Translations under genes and position numbers: made by a program
The notes under the pieces: generated by a model
Database searches by the model: none
Told to the model about the DNA's origin: nothing
What the model saw: the letters and a program-made list of their open reading frames with translations, nothing else
Part shown: piece by piece, positions 5,310-42,059 of the stretch
How the letters are laid out: each line of letters begins with the position of its first letter
Position numbering within the stretch: position 1 is the stretch's first letter
From: Streptomyces sp. R44
Lineage (GTDB): Bacteria > Actinomycetota > Actinomycetes > Streptomycetales > Streptomycetaceae
DNA: 64,000 nucleotides
Assembly: GCF_041053105.1 (NCBI RefSeq)
Contig: NZ_CP163444.1
Span: forward strand, 6,790,501 to 6,854,500
Reading direction: 5' to 3'

Positions 5310-5345
5310 TTCCGTATAGCAGAACAGTATTTCCGCATTACGGAA
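5310..5345. promoter_or_regulatory. Tandem 15-bp palindromes upstream of gcl (putative AllR operator)
   Basis: Two 15-bp units, TTCCGTATAGCAGAA (5310-5324) and TTCCGCATTACGGAA (5331-5345), are separated by exactly 6 bp (CAGTAT). The second is a perfect TTCCG-N5-CGGAA palindrome and the first has one mismatch in its right arm. The block ends 67 bp before the gcl ATG. The same architecture occurs before hyi, aceB and allB. The inner CAGAA-N6-TTCCG half-sites resemble the TGGAA-N5-TTCCA core reported for E. coli IclR. Assignment to AllR is inference. Confidence 0.75.
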
Positions 5346-5412
5346 ACAGGTGGTCGGGCCTCCCGAGACGAGGCCCCGCCTGGATCCGCCCGGCCGAAGC
5401 AGGAGCACTCCC

Positions 5413-7200
5413 ATGCCTCGTATGACCGCCGCCGCAGCGGCCGTTGAGATCCTCAAGCGCGAAGGCGTCACCCAGGCGTTCGGCGTCCCCGGCGCGGCGA
5501 TCAACCCCTTCTACCGCGAGCTCAAGAACGTGGGCGGCGTCAGCCACACCCTCGCCCGCCACGTCGAGGGCGCGTCCCACATGGCCGAGGGCTACACCCG
5601 TGCCCAGGCCGGCAACATCGGCGTCTGCATCGGTACGTCCGGCCCCGCCGGCACCGACATGATCACCGGCCTGTACTCGGCCATCGCGGACTCCATCCCG
5701 ATCCTCTGCATCACCGGCCAGGCTCCGGTCTCGAAGCTCCACAAGGAGGACTTCCAGGCCGTCGACATCGCCACGATCGCCAAGCCGGTCACCAAGGCCG
5801 CGACGACCGTCCTGGAGGCCGCGCAGGTCCCCGGCGTCTTCCAGCAGGCCTTCCACCTGATGCGCTCCGGCCGCCCCGGCCCGGTCCTGATCGACCTGCC
5901 GATCGACGTCCAGCTGACCGAGATCGAGTTCGACCCGGAGACCTACGAGCCGCTGCCGGTCTACAAGCCGTCCGCGACCCGCGCCCAGGCCGAGAAGGCC
6001 CTGAGCTTCCTCCTGGAGGCCGAGCGCCCGCTGATCGTCGCCGGCGGCGGCATCATCAACGCCGACGCCTCCGACCTGCTGGTCGAGTTCGCCGAGCTGA
6101 CCGACATCCCGGTCATCTCCACCCTCATGGGCTGGGGCACCATCCCGGACGACCACGAGCTGGCGGCCGGCATGGTCGGCGTCCAGACCGCGCACCGCTA
6201 CGGCAACGCGACCTTCCTGGAGTCCGACACCGTCATCGGCATCGGCAACCGCTGGGCCAACCGCCACACGGGCTACAACCTGGACGCCTACACCAAGGGC
6301 CGCAAGTTCGTCCACGTCGACATCGAGCCCACCCAGCTCGGCAAGATCTTCGCCCCCGACTACGGCATCGCCTCCGACGCCAAGGTCGCCCTGGAGCTCT
6401 TCGTCGAGATCGCCAAGGAGTGGAAGGCCGCGGGCAAGCTCCCGGACTTCTCCGCCTGGGCCGCCTCCGCGCAGGAGCGCAAGGCCACCCTCCAGCGCCG
6501 CACGCACTTCGACAACATCCCGATGAAGCCGCAGCGCGTCTACGAGGAGATGAACAAGGCCTTCGGCCCGGAGACCCGTTACGTCACCACCATCGGTCTG
6601 TCCCAGATCGCGGCCGCGCAGTTCCTGCACGTCTACAAGCCGCGCCACTGGATCAACTGCGGCCAGGCCGGCCCGCTCGGCTGGACGATCCCGGCCGCCA
6701 TCGGTGCCGCCACCGCGCAGCCGGACGTCCCGGTCGTCGCGCTCTCCGGCGACTACGACTTCCAGTTCATGATCGAGGAGCTGGCGGTCGCCGCCCAGCA
6801 CAAGGTCCCCTACGTCCACGTCCTCGTGAACAACGCCTACCTCGGTCTGATCCGTCAGGCGCAGGGTGGCCTCGGCATCAACTTCGAGGTCAACCTCGAG
6901 TTCGAGAACATCAACACCCCGGAGATCGGCGTCTACGGCGTCGACCACGTCAAGGTCGCCGAGGGCCTGGGCGTCAAGGCCATCCGCGTCACCGACCCGG
7001 ACAAGCTCGGCGAGGCCCTGGAGGAGGCCAAGAAGCTGGCCGTCGAGCACCAGGTCCCGGTCGTCGTCGAGGCGATCCTGGAGCGCATCACCAACATCGC
7101 CATGAGCAAGACGGTCGACATGAGCGACGTCACCGAGTTCGAGGACCTGGCCACCGAGCCCGGCCACGCGCCGACCGCGATCAAGGCCCTCCAGGTCTGA
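5413..7200 (+). CDS. gcl: Glyoxylate carboligase (tartronate-semialdehyde synthase)
   Basis: A 595-aa ThDP-dependent enzyme that condenses two glyoxylates to tartronate semialdehyde plus CO2. It has the three-domain layout of the acetolactate synthase superfamily: an N-terminal PYR domain ([17 protein letters not shown]), a central domain, and a C-terminal PP domain with the ThDP/Mg motif GDYDF...NNAY. The position normally held by the catalytic glutamate is valine ([14 protein letters not shown]51), the known hallmark of glyoxylate carboligase. The ATG at 5413 is chosen because AGGAGC lies 6 bases upstream and [14 protein letters not shown] is the family N-terminus. It is monocistronic, with its own operator and a strong terminator. 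Confidence 0.97.
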
Positions 7201-7209
7201 TCGACACCC

Positions 7210-8229
7210 TCAGCAGAGGGACCGACCCCCGCCCCGAGGAGCACCGGGGCGGGGGTCTCCCTGTGCCGCCGCCACGAGCACCGCGCCCGCCTCCGTCCAC
7301 GCGTAGAGCACCGAGCGGCCCGCCCGCCCACGCCGTACGAGCCCGGCGTCGAGCAGCACCTTCAGATGCCGGCCGACGGAGCCGAGCCCCTGCCCCGTGA
7401 GCGCCACCAACTGGCTGGTGGACAGCGGCGATTCGAGCCGTACGAGCACCCCGGCGCGGGCCGTTCCGAGCAGGGCCCCCAGGGCCTCCGGCACCGCGGG
7501 ACCGGACGCGTCCGCCAGGACTCCCGCGCAGGCGTAGACGATCGCGTACCGCTCCGCCCCCTCCCACGACACCCAGCCGGTCGCCGGCGTCACCGGCACG
7601 AGCAGCAGGCGCCCCCGGTCGACCGAACGCGGCGGATAGTCACGGGTGTTGACCTGCAGCCGGCCGTCGCCGAGCCAGCGCATCTTCCCCGGGCACAGCT
7701 CGTCGAGCGCCGCCGCCCAGCCGCCCCGGCTCAGCATCGCCGTCCGCGCCACCACATCGGCCTCCAGGATCCGCCGCCGACGCGCCCACTCCGGCCGTAC
7801 CGTCTCCCGCCACACCCAGCCGAGCACGCCCGCGAGCCGCTCCGGGAGATCCCGCGCCGAGCGCAGCGGCTCCGGCACCGGGCCGCCGATCGCCACCGCC
7901 AACTGGTCCACGGCGTCGGCCGGTTCGGTGGAACGGACGGCCTCGACCTCCTCCTCGAAGCTCCGCTCGCGGTCGCCCAGCGGGGTGGGGGTGAGGAAGT
8001 CCGCGTTCCAGGTCGGCCCGATCGCCGCCCGTACGAGCAGTCCGTCGAGCGGCTCCGCCGCGAGCCGCTCCCGGTACGCGGGCAGACAGCGGTCGAGCCA
8101 GGCCCGCTCGCCCGGGTGCGCCGCCGCCCCCGCGTGCAGGACCTTCAGCGAGGCGATCGTCTCGGCGAGCGGCGACACGACGAACGAGCTCCCCGCCAGG
8201 GTGTCCGTACCGATCTGCCACCAGCCCAT
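7210..8229 (-). CDS. ArsR/SmtB-type winged-helix transcriptional regulator
   Basis: A 339-aa protein. The last third holds an ArsR-like winged helix (VRLESPLSTSQLVALTGQGLGSVGRHLKVLLDAGLVRRGRAGRSVLYAWTEAG in short pieces, about residues 260-315); the N-terminal 240 residues form the effector-type region seen in long actinobacterial ArsR-family proteins. No metal-binding CxC is visible. It is divergent from an MFS transporter, with a perfect inverted repeat between them, so control of that transporter is likely. Its last residues are encoded by the gcl terminator stem, so the two convergent transcripts overlap. Confidence 0.82.
   Translation of the reverse strand: MGWWQIGTDTLAGSSFVVSPLAETIASLKVLHAGAAAHPGERAWLDRCLPAYRERLAAEPLDGLLVRAAIGPTWNADFLTPTPLGDRERSFEEEVEAVRSTEPADAVDQLAVAIGGPVPEPLRSARDLPERLAGVLGWVWRETVRPEWARRRRILEADVVARTAMLSRGGWAAALDELCPGKMRWLGDGRLQVNTRDYPPRSVDRGRLLLVPVTPATGWVSWEGAERYAIVYACAGVLADASGPAVPEALGALLGTARAGVLVRLESPLSTSQLVALTGQGLGSVGRHLKVLLDAGLVRRGRAGRSVLYAWTEAGAVLVAAAQGDPRPGAPRGGGRSLC
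7224..7257. terminator. gcl terminator inside the 3' end of the ArsR gene
   Basis: A perfect 13-bp stem: GACCCCCGCCCCG (7224-7236) pairs with CGGGGCGGGGGTC (7245-7257) around an 8-nt loop. It lies 24 bp after the gcl stop and within the coding tail of the convergent ArsR gene. No U-tract is seen, as is common in Streptomyces. Confidence 0.85.
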
Positions 8230-8258
8230 ACGACCGCACCTTCACCACGAGCCCGTTC

Positions 8259-41001: not shown

Positions 41002-41029
41002 CCTGCGTGCCGCACGGGCGGCGCGCAGG
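41002..41029. terminator. Hairpin between ABC operon and allR
   Basis: A 12-bp stem CCTGCGTGCCGC (41002-41013) / GCGGCGCGCAGG (41018-41029) with one G-U pair and a 4-nt loop, between convergent genes. Part of the sequence (CCTGCG-GCCGCACGGGCGGCG) also occurs as a direct repeat just upstream (from about 40976). Confidence 0.7.
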
Positions 41030-41050
41030 ATCACACCGTCGACGCCGGTC

Positions 41051-41860
41051 TCAGCCCTGGTTGTTGCCGGAGGTGTTCGCCAGGGCCGCCGACAGTTCGC
41101 GGGCCACTTCCTGGAGGATCGGGACGATCTTCTCGGTGGCCGCCTCGGTGACCCGGCCCGCCGGGCCCGAGATGGAGATGGCCGCCGCGGTGGGGGAGTC
41201 CGGCACGGAGACCGCGAGGCAGCGGACTCCTATCTCCTGCTCGTTGTCGTCGACCGCGTATCCCGTCTCGCGGACCGCGACGAGCGCGTCGAGGAAGCCG
41301 TCCGGGGTGGTGATGGTCTTCTCGGTCGCGGCCGGCATGCCGGTGCGGGCGAGCAGCGCCCGTACCTCCTCCGCCGGGGTGTGCGCGAGGAGCGCCTTGC
41401 CGACGCCGGTCGAGTGCGGCAGGACCCGGCGGCCGACCTCGGTGAACATGCGCATCGAGTGCTTCGAGGGCACCTGTGCGACGTACACGATCTCGTCGCC
41501 GTCGAGCAGCGCCATGTTCGCGGTCTCGCCGGTCTCCTCGACGAGCCGCGCCAGGTAGGGGCGGGCCCAGGTGCCGAGGAGGCGGGAGGCGGACTCGCCG
41601 AGCCGGATGAGCCGGGGGCCGAGCGCGTACCGGCGGTTGGGCTGCTGGCGGACGTAGCCGCAGGCCACGAGGGTGCGCATGAGCCGGTGGATGGTGGGGA
41701 GCGGGAGTCCGCTGCTGGCGGAGAGCTCGCTCAGCCCGACCTCGCCCCCGGCATCGGCCATCCGCTCCAGGAGGTCGAAGGCGCGCTCAAGGGACTGGAC
41801 GCCCCCGCTCGCGGCGGCGGGCTTGGCGGCGTCGGTGGTGCTGGCGCTGGACGTCGGCAC
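41051..41860 (-). CDS. allR: IclR-family regulator of the allantoin pathway (AllR-like)
   Basis: A 269-aa IclR-family repressor. The N-terminal winged helix is at about residues 20-80 ([14 protein letters not shown], then [19 protein letters not shown]) and the C-terminal effector domain at about 95-265 ([38 protein letters not shown]). The GTG at 41860 is chosen because AAAGGACC lies just upstream and the leader reads MPTSSAST. It is divergent from allB-alc with a putative operator between them. AllR of E. coli and S. coelicolor are IclR-family regulators of this pathway; the ligand of this protein is not known from sequence. Confidence 0.9.
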
Positions 41861-42023
41861 GTCAACGGTCCTTTCGGGGCAGGCGGGCAAGGCAGCAGCC
41901 TACCGGGCCGCCGACCGGGGCACACGGTCCCGGTCCCGGCGTCAGCGCCGGTCAGGGGGTGTTTGTCCGGTGTCGGCGAGGGCCCGGAGCCGTCGGGGTC
42001 CGGCCCGCATGTGCGGAGCTACG

Positions 42024-42059
42024 TTCTACTGTACGGAATTCTCATTCCACTTTGTGGAA
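42024..42059. promoter_or_regulatory. Tandem 15-bp palindromes between allR and allB (putative AllR operator)
   Basis: TTCTACTGTACGGAA (42024-42038) and TTCCACTTTGTGGAA (42045-42059, perfect palindrome) separated by 6 bp (TTCTCA). Same layout as gcl, hyi and aceB. It sits in the 328-bp divergent region between allR and allB, so it may serve both repression of allB-alc and autoregulation. Confidence 0.78.

Follow-up and report, generated by a model that had tools for sequence, protein, structure and literature searches.

The 64,000-nucleotide stretch of the Streptomyces sp. R44 genome analysed here (the window; C1:6790501-6854500 of a single contig of 8,892,027 bases, with a GC content of 72.6%) carries genes for allantoin breakdown and glyoxylate use, among them gcl, hyi, aceB, allB and alc, together with allR, which encodes a regulator of the IclR family (Table 1). 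Four blocks of 36 bp can be read directly from the sequence, at gcl, at hyi, at aceB and between allR and allB, and each consists of two 15-bp palindromes of the form TTCCG-N5-CGGAA separated by a gap of 6 bp.

Paired palindromes in the window and the genome

All four blocks described in a first-pass annotation of this DNA were recovered at their exact coordinates, and in every one of them the centres of the two palindromes lie 21 bp apart. The arms match two copies of TTCCG-N5-CGGAA at 19 of 20 positions at gcl and at hyi, at 16 of 20 between allR and allB, and at 15 of 20 at aceB, the weakest of the four copies. A matrix built from the eight 15-mers of these blocks only, applied with a pair spacing of 21 bp and a score of at least 20, detected no pair in the window beyond the four blocks, and the same matrix detected 0 pairs in 20 dinucleotide shuffles of the window.

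The first-pass annotation had counted recurrence of the paired motif at many unrelated promoters as evidence against its reading, and the genome-wide scan it had proposed shows no such recurrence, few places scoring well beyond the four blocks. The relaxed pattern TTCYN6YRGAA-N6-TTCYN6YRGAA occurs without mismatch at gcl, hyi and allB/allR only, and with one mismatch at aceB. When up to three mismatches were allowed, 35 forward and 27 reverse matches were obtained versus 25 and 23 for the reversed reading used as control, so that noise accounts for most of the weak matches. Scoring the 47 distinct places with the matrix put the four blocks at the top (46.1, 42.7, 42.6 and 33.2), followed by 27.9 (before an aquaporin-like gene), 26.2 (before a gene of the DUF6986 family), 21.1 and 19.8, and then by values of at most 14.2. 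One of the matches, at C1:2701744, was set aside as probably due to chance, a single reading frame with high GC3 being all that was seen within 3 kb.

Table 1. Features of the window discussed in the text (positions within the window; promoters are consensus matches).
Feature	Position	Strand	Basis and remarks
Paired palindromes at gcl, predicted operator	5310..5345	+	Sequence
Predicted gcl promoter, TTGACG-N18-TACATT	5278..5307	+	Consensus match; -10 ends 2 bp before block
gcl, glyoxylate carboligase	5413..7200	+	TIGR01504, 1143 bits; likely ATG start 5413
Paired palindromes at hyi, predicted operator	13253..13288	-	Sequence
Predicted hyi promoter, TTGACA-N18-CAACAT	13288..13317	-	Consensus match; weak -10; touches block
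hyi, hydroxypyruvate isomerase-like	12404..13237	-	TIGR03234, 307 bits, under cut-off of 353
Tartronate semialdehyde reductase-like gene, after hyi	11469..12437	-	PF03446, PF14833; presumed enzyme name, from context
Paired palindromes at aceB, predicted operator	29245..29280	-	Sequence; inside core promoter
Predicted aceB promoter, TTGAAC-N17-TAGTAT	29258..29286	-	Consensus match
aceB, malate synthase A	27499..29121	-	TIGR01344, 844 bits
Paired palindromes between allR and allB, predicted operator	42024..42059	.	Sequence; possibly allR autoregulatory site
allR, IclR-family regulator, candidate binder	41051..41860	-	PF09339, 66 bits; PF01614, 149 bits
Candidate allB promoter, TTGACG-N18-AAGACT	42105..42134	+	Consensus match
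Palindrome TTCAAC-N5-GTTGAA at allB start region	42139..42155	.	Sequence; 78/80 loci
allB, allantoinase-like amidohydrolase	42189..43523	+	PF01979; GTG start 42189 or 42168
alc, allantoicase	43525..44640	+	TIGR02961, 415 bits

Conservation of the spacing and further blocks among relatives

Loci of relatives were fetched with the AllR protein as query (80 loci, nearly all titled Streptomyces), and for gcl, hyi, DUF6986, MIP and permease genes the best 30 of 46, 54, 59, 44 and 109 matches, respectively, were used. In the 80 allR loci, when each palindrome was allowed up to one mismatch, 137 pairs were counted at a distance of 21 bp, whereas no other distance within 60 bp gave more than 6. Most of these pairs correspond to two orthologous sites, the pattern block being present before allR in 76 of the 80 loci and on the aceB side in 60 (several of the 20 others are too short to reach that site), and the best spacing was therefore also asked for locus by locus. 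Within the 350 bp before allR, and among spacings from 15 to 44, the best pair has the 21-bp distance in 76 of 78 loci (two of the 80 being too short); of 40 shuffled regions, 0 gave this result. The hexamer in the gap takes 39 forms across the 76 loci, so that the length of the gap is kept and its sequence is free; on these comparisons, the 21-bp spacing looks to be under selection. The block is also kept at gcl in 29 of 30 loci and at hyi in 30 of 30, and this retention at the allantoin and glyoxylate genes of relatives is what would be expected of a Streptomyces AllR regulon.

Outside the window, the block ranking sixth in the genome (C1:1256172) precedes a DUF6986 gene, with 16 bp between the end of the block and the likely ATG. 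A block lies upstream of DUF6986 in all 30 Streptomyces loci, scoring at least 23 in 29 of them and a weak 14.8 in the remaining one (L112), and DUF6986 is a predicted target that appears to be new here. The block at C1:2851015-2851050 (L015) lies directly before a MIP/aquaporin gene, where a score of at least 28 is reached in 7 of 30 loci, five further loci scoring 17-22 and the remainder lower; we discarded this gene as a general target, since it seems lineage-specific at most, though AllR control of a urea or glycerol channel would be sensible if the pathway releases urea. A permease block (C1:8688213, score 22.1) was likewise rejected as a conserved target: among 30 loci, only L165 has another pair near that level, scoring 19.3 at a gap of 6 and 22.7 at a gap of 4, 1256 bp away.

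AllR as candidate binder and the layout of the promoters

The AllR protein combines an N-terminal HTH_IclR domain with a C-terminal IclR_C domain, which places it in the IclR family. It reaches 128 bits against the E. coli AllR model (NCBIfam PRK10163), whose cut-off is 406, and stays under every listed NCBIfam cut-off, the top model being BhcR (204 bits versus 350); because the protein falls so far below the E. coli AllR cut-off, its name rests on context. In five loci from other genera (L284, L286, L287, L289 and L292) an AllR orthologue is encoded near DUF6986, and in all five the best pair spacing before allR is again 21 bp, four of these pairs outscoring all 40 shuffles. The scan for pairs in the DUF6986 loci of other genera covered 9 of 20 loci, and in the four of them where an AllR orthologue was looked for but not found (L285, L288, L290 and L291) no comparable pair was seen in the stretches scanned. 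The pair thus tracks AllR orthologues in the scanned loci, which together with the constancy of the spacing in Streptomyces lends support to the assignment to AllR made by the first-pass annotation, and AllR likely binds the blocks.

Streptomyces genomes are rich in IclR-family genes, and another paralogue of the family could bind the blocks, alone or together with AllR. This would fit with motif classes being common to orthologous groups, as stated in the portion of Suvorova and Gelfand (2021, PMC8222616) consulted here, but the block follows allR orthologues across genera in the scanned loci, and we regard the involvement of a paralogue as quite unlikely. We attach a similarly small probability to the inner GGAA-N6-TTCC pair being the operative unit, as in E. 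coli IclR, the outer arms then serving as accessory boxes. This resemblance had been put forward in the first-pass annotation, and in the same partial text (PMC8222616) the group 2 consensus TGRAACAN1-2TGTTYCA gives GRAA-N5/6-TTYC, which makes such a geometry possible, and three-box sites are known in the family. Yet group 2 sites require CA..TG beside the inner arms, whereas the gap hexamers vary freely here, and the positions within each 15-mer follow RY-W3-RY. Each 15-bp palindrome of the matrix fits the WTT-11-AAW motif class with the consensus WTTYCRYW3RYGRAAW, which that source (PMC8222616) describes. It also reports tandem sites with 18-22 bp between centres for 94 orthologous groups, and proposes a tetramer as their binder; the second palindrome falls within this range in the four window blocks. 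The inner pair was accordingly rejected as the operator on the test of gap conservation. Least probable is that the palindromes are independent, non-cooperative dimer sites whose spacing is inherited and not functional, since, even if most conserved copies are orthologous sites of shared ancestry, the distance of 21 bp returns at the unrelated promoters of five genes (gcl, hyi, aceB, allR and DUF6986), and again in other genera, with a drifting gap sequence.

Promoters were defined as consensus matches, not as mapped start sites. The block at gcl should cover the transcription start site, given the position of the predicted -10, and promoters of the same layout lie before DUF6986 in the 10 relatives compared. 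At aceB, palindrome 1 fills the spacer of the promoter, and the gap and palindrome 2 overlap the -10; this layout is kept in 7 of 8 relatives, the stretch compared in the eighth (L067) having excluded the block. An allR promoter (TGGACG-17-TAGAAT or TATTAT) with its -10 in the gap is present in 4 of 8 relatives, and at hyi the same scan detected no promoter in 3 of 6 relatives. The blocks overlap the promoters predicted for gcl, hyi and aceB, which suggests simple repression.

We infer that the blocks are very probably the operators of an IclR-family repressor, AllR, that is released by a ligand. Two AllR dimers, probably forming one tetramer, would sit on the two 15-bp palindromes on the same face of the DNA; a tetramer on two palindromes is consistent with IclR-family behaviour as published in the part of PMC8222616 consulted. 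With AllR bound, RNA polymerase would be blocked, the start site being covered at gcl, hyi and DUF6986 and the core promoter at aceB and, in some relatives, at allR. A ureide or glyoxylate-type ligand would release AllR, which would turn on allB and alc for allantoin breakdown, DUF6986 for its predicted step from ureidoglycolate to glyoxylate, and gcl, hyi and aceB for glyoxylate use.

Several observations weigh against this explanation. One relative (L217) has no block at gcl, two of the 78 allR loci have other best spacings (16 and 41), and in L292 the pair next to allR is weak, being matched or beaten by 1 of 40 shuffles. The consensus scan did not find a clear allR promoter over the block in the R44 genome. 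The block that the first-pass annotation had ascribed to both allB and allR is present, and it lies 46 bp before the predicted -35 of allB, so that repression of this gene by the block alone is not obvious.

A different palindrome, TTCAAC-N5-GTTGAA, lies at the start region of allB, where it is exact in 69 and carries one mismatch in 9 of the 80 loci, the 2 others ending too near allR. With at most one mismatch it is also found before a catalase gene (11346-11362) and before the OHCU decarboxylase gene uraD (14079-14095), and it occurs at 10 places genome-wide versus 3 for a control. This looks like the mark of a second regulon, devoted to urate oxidation and hydrogen peroxide removal. A regulator gene of the HTH_22 type (PF13309) lies between hyi and uraD (13302-14012, + strand), and an HTH_22 gene also adjoins uricase in the other-genus locus L288; the HTH_22 regulator is a candidate binder of this palindrome. 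As for alc, another allantoicase gene is located elsewhere in the genome (C1:3049757-3050689).

DUF6986 and comparison with known systems

The DUF6986 protein scores 601 bits against PF22484 and 28.4 bits against PF03328 (HpcH/HpaI, cut-off 25), with no other Pfam match at E 0.001; the AllA family (PF04115) matches neither this protein nor anything else in the R44 genome. The profile and the motifs IET and G..DY, which are invariant in 60 sequences and which we take to be metal ligands, place it in the HpcH/HpaI-CitE-malyl-CoA lyase superfamily. Its closest solved protein by profile is the malyl-CoA/beta-methylmalyl-CoA lyase 5ugr (E 4e-5), and the alignment spans both motifs. Malyl-CoA lyase is an enzyme type that releases glyoxylate.

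Among 20 DUF6986 loci from other genera, at least one of aceB, allR, allB and alc was found in 18 and allB in 15 (fetched stretch, up to ~9 kb on each side). None of the four was matched in the fetched stretches of L288 and L301; in L288, uricase and hyi lie near DUF6986. A metagenomic protein (P0204) in which DUF6986 is fused to an OHCU decarboxylase provides an independent tie to purine breakdown. In one locus a malic enzyme-like gene is the neighbour of DUF6986 (L288:7528-8943), and in another such a gene lies two genes after malate synthase (L284:11877-13352), which suggests that the ureide pathway has an outlet from glyoxylate through malate to pyruvate.

Co-occurrence was examined in 148 genomes of the class. 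PF22484 is matched in 101 of them at E 0.001 and in 98 above its low cut-off of 27 bits, and the scores split into 50 genomes with at least 329 bits and all others below 49 bits. Only the 50 strong genomes were counted as having DUF6986, because matches below 49 bits are expected of other HpcH/HpaI proteins. Allantoicase is present in 45 genomes, together with strong DUF6986 in 42. The 8 DUF6986 genomes that lack allantoicase are exactly the 8 above the cut-off of NF040771 (UGLYAH2-type, bifunctional allantoicase/(S)-ureidoglycine aminohydrolase; matched in 16 genomes at E 0.001), and in 8 of 8 no more than 16 kb separates the NF040771 gene from DUF6986, the distance being within 4 kb in 7 of them. 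Both enzymes form ureidoglycolate, and they are found together in 0 of the 148 genomes. Altogether, DUF6986 is present in 50 of the 53 genomes with a ureidoglycolate-forming enzyme versus 0 of the 95 others (Fisher p 2.6e-36, uncorrected for shared ancestry). The three ureidoglycolate-forming genomes without strong DUF6986 are G063, G077 and G107, and G077 carries a short fragment of DUF6986 close to the start of a contig. AllA is matched in 3 of the 148 genomes, at 82, 33 and 28 bits (cut-off 23), the latter two being weak.

We give about an even chance to DUF6986 (PF22484) being the missing ureidoglycolate lyase, a protein non-homologous to AllA that would replace it, use a metal site of the malyl-CoA lyase type to form urea and glyoxylate from ureidoglycolate, and act after whichever enzyme supplies this substrate, allantoicase or the UGLYAH2-type enzyme. 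It is possible, if less favoured, that DUF6986 has a different glyoxylate-linked activity within the same pathway, for instance as a malyl-CoA-lyase-like or malate-synthase-like enzyme, as suggested by its closest solved relative, by the malic enzyme-like neighbours, and by 3 of 120 relatives that also match a malate synthase domain among the matches listed. However, DUF6986 goes with ureidoglycolate-forming enzymes, and malate synthase is already present in 49 of the 50 DUF6986 genomes and also in 42 genomes without DUF6986, which makes a malate-synthase role less likely.

The fixed 21-bp geometry is useful as a fingerprint. Here it connects a large family of enzymes that has no name yet with ureide catabolism, and it narrows an apparent gap in actinobacterial purine breakdown, where hardly any AllA is found, to a one-enzyme assay. 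Proteins that at present carry the names aldolase or citrate lyase beta subunit could also be named better. No paper on DUF6986/PF22484 or on a ureidoglycolate lyase of the HpcH type was found in the literature searched, most subscription journals lying outside it. AllA/DAL3 ureidoglycolate lyase, as described in the available part of PMC3793230, catalyses the same step as that predicted for DUF6986, but it has a cupin-type fold (PF04115) in contrast to the HpcH/HpaI-malyl-CoA lyase superfamily membership of DUF6986.

To go by the title of a 2015 article from Navone and colleagues (AEM 81:6649), AllR reportedly regulates allantoin pathway genes in S. coelicolor. An IclR-family repressor of the allantoin pathway of this species is also cited in the part of PMC12772271 consulted. 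The first-pass annotation had singled out the architecture itself as notable, but tandem palindromes are common in the IclR family according to the text available from PMC8222616, and the blocks described here are a clean example of an arrangement already known. They share with those tandem operators the palindrome class and the range of spacings, and differ in the single fixed spacing at the targets of one regulator and in their placement relative to predicted promoters. With the E. coli AllR and IclR operators (PMC8222616, Table 1) they have in common GGAA/TTCC-armed palindromes at allantoin or glyoxylate genes, but the E. coli sites are given in that table as a single GGAA-N5-TTCC unit, whereas the blocks described here consist of two TTCC-N7-GGAA palindromes.

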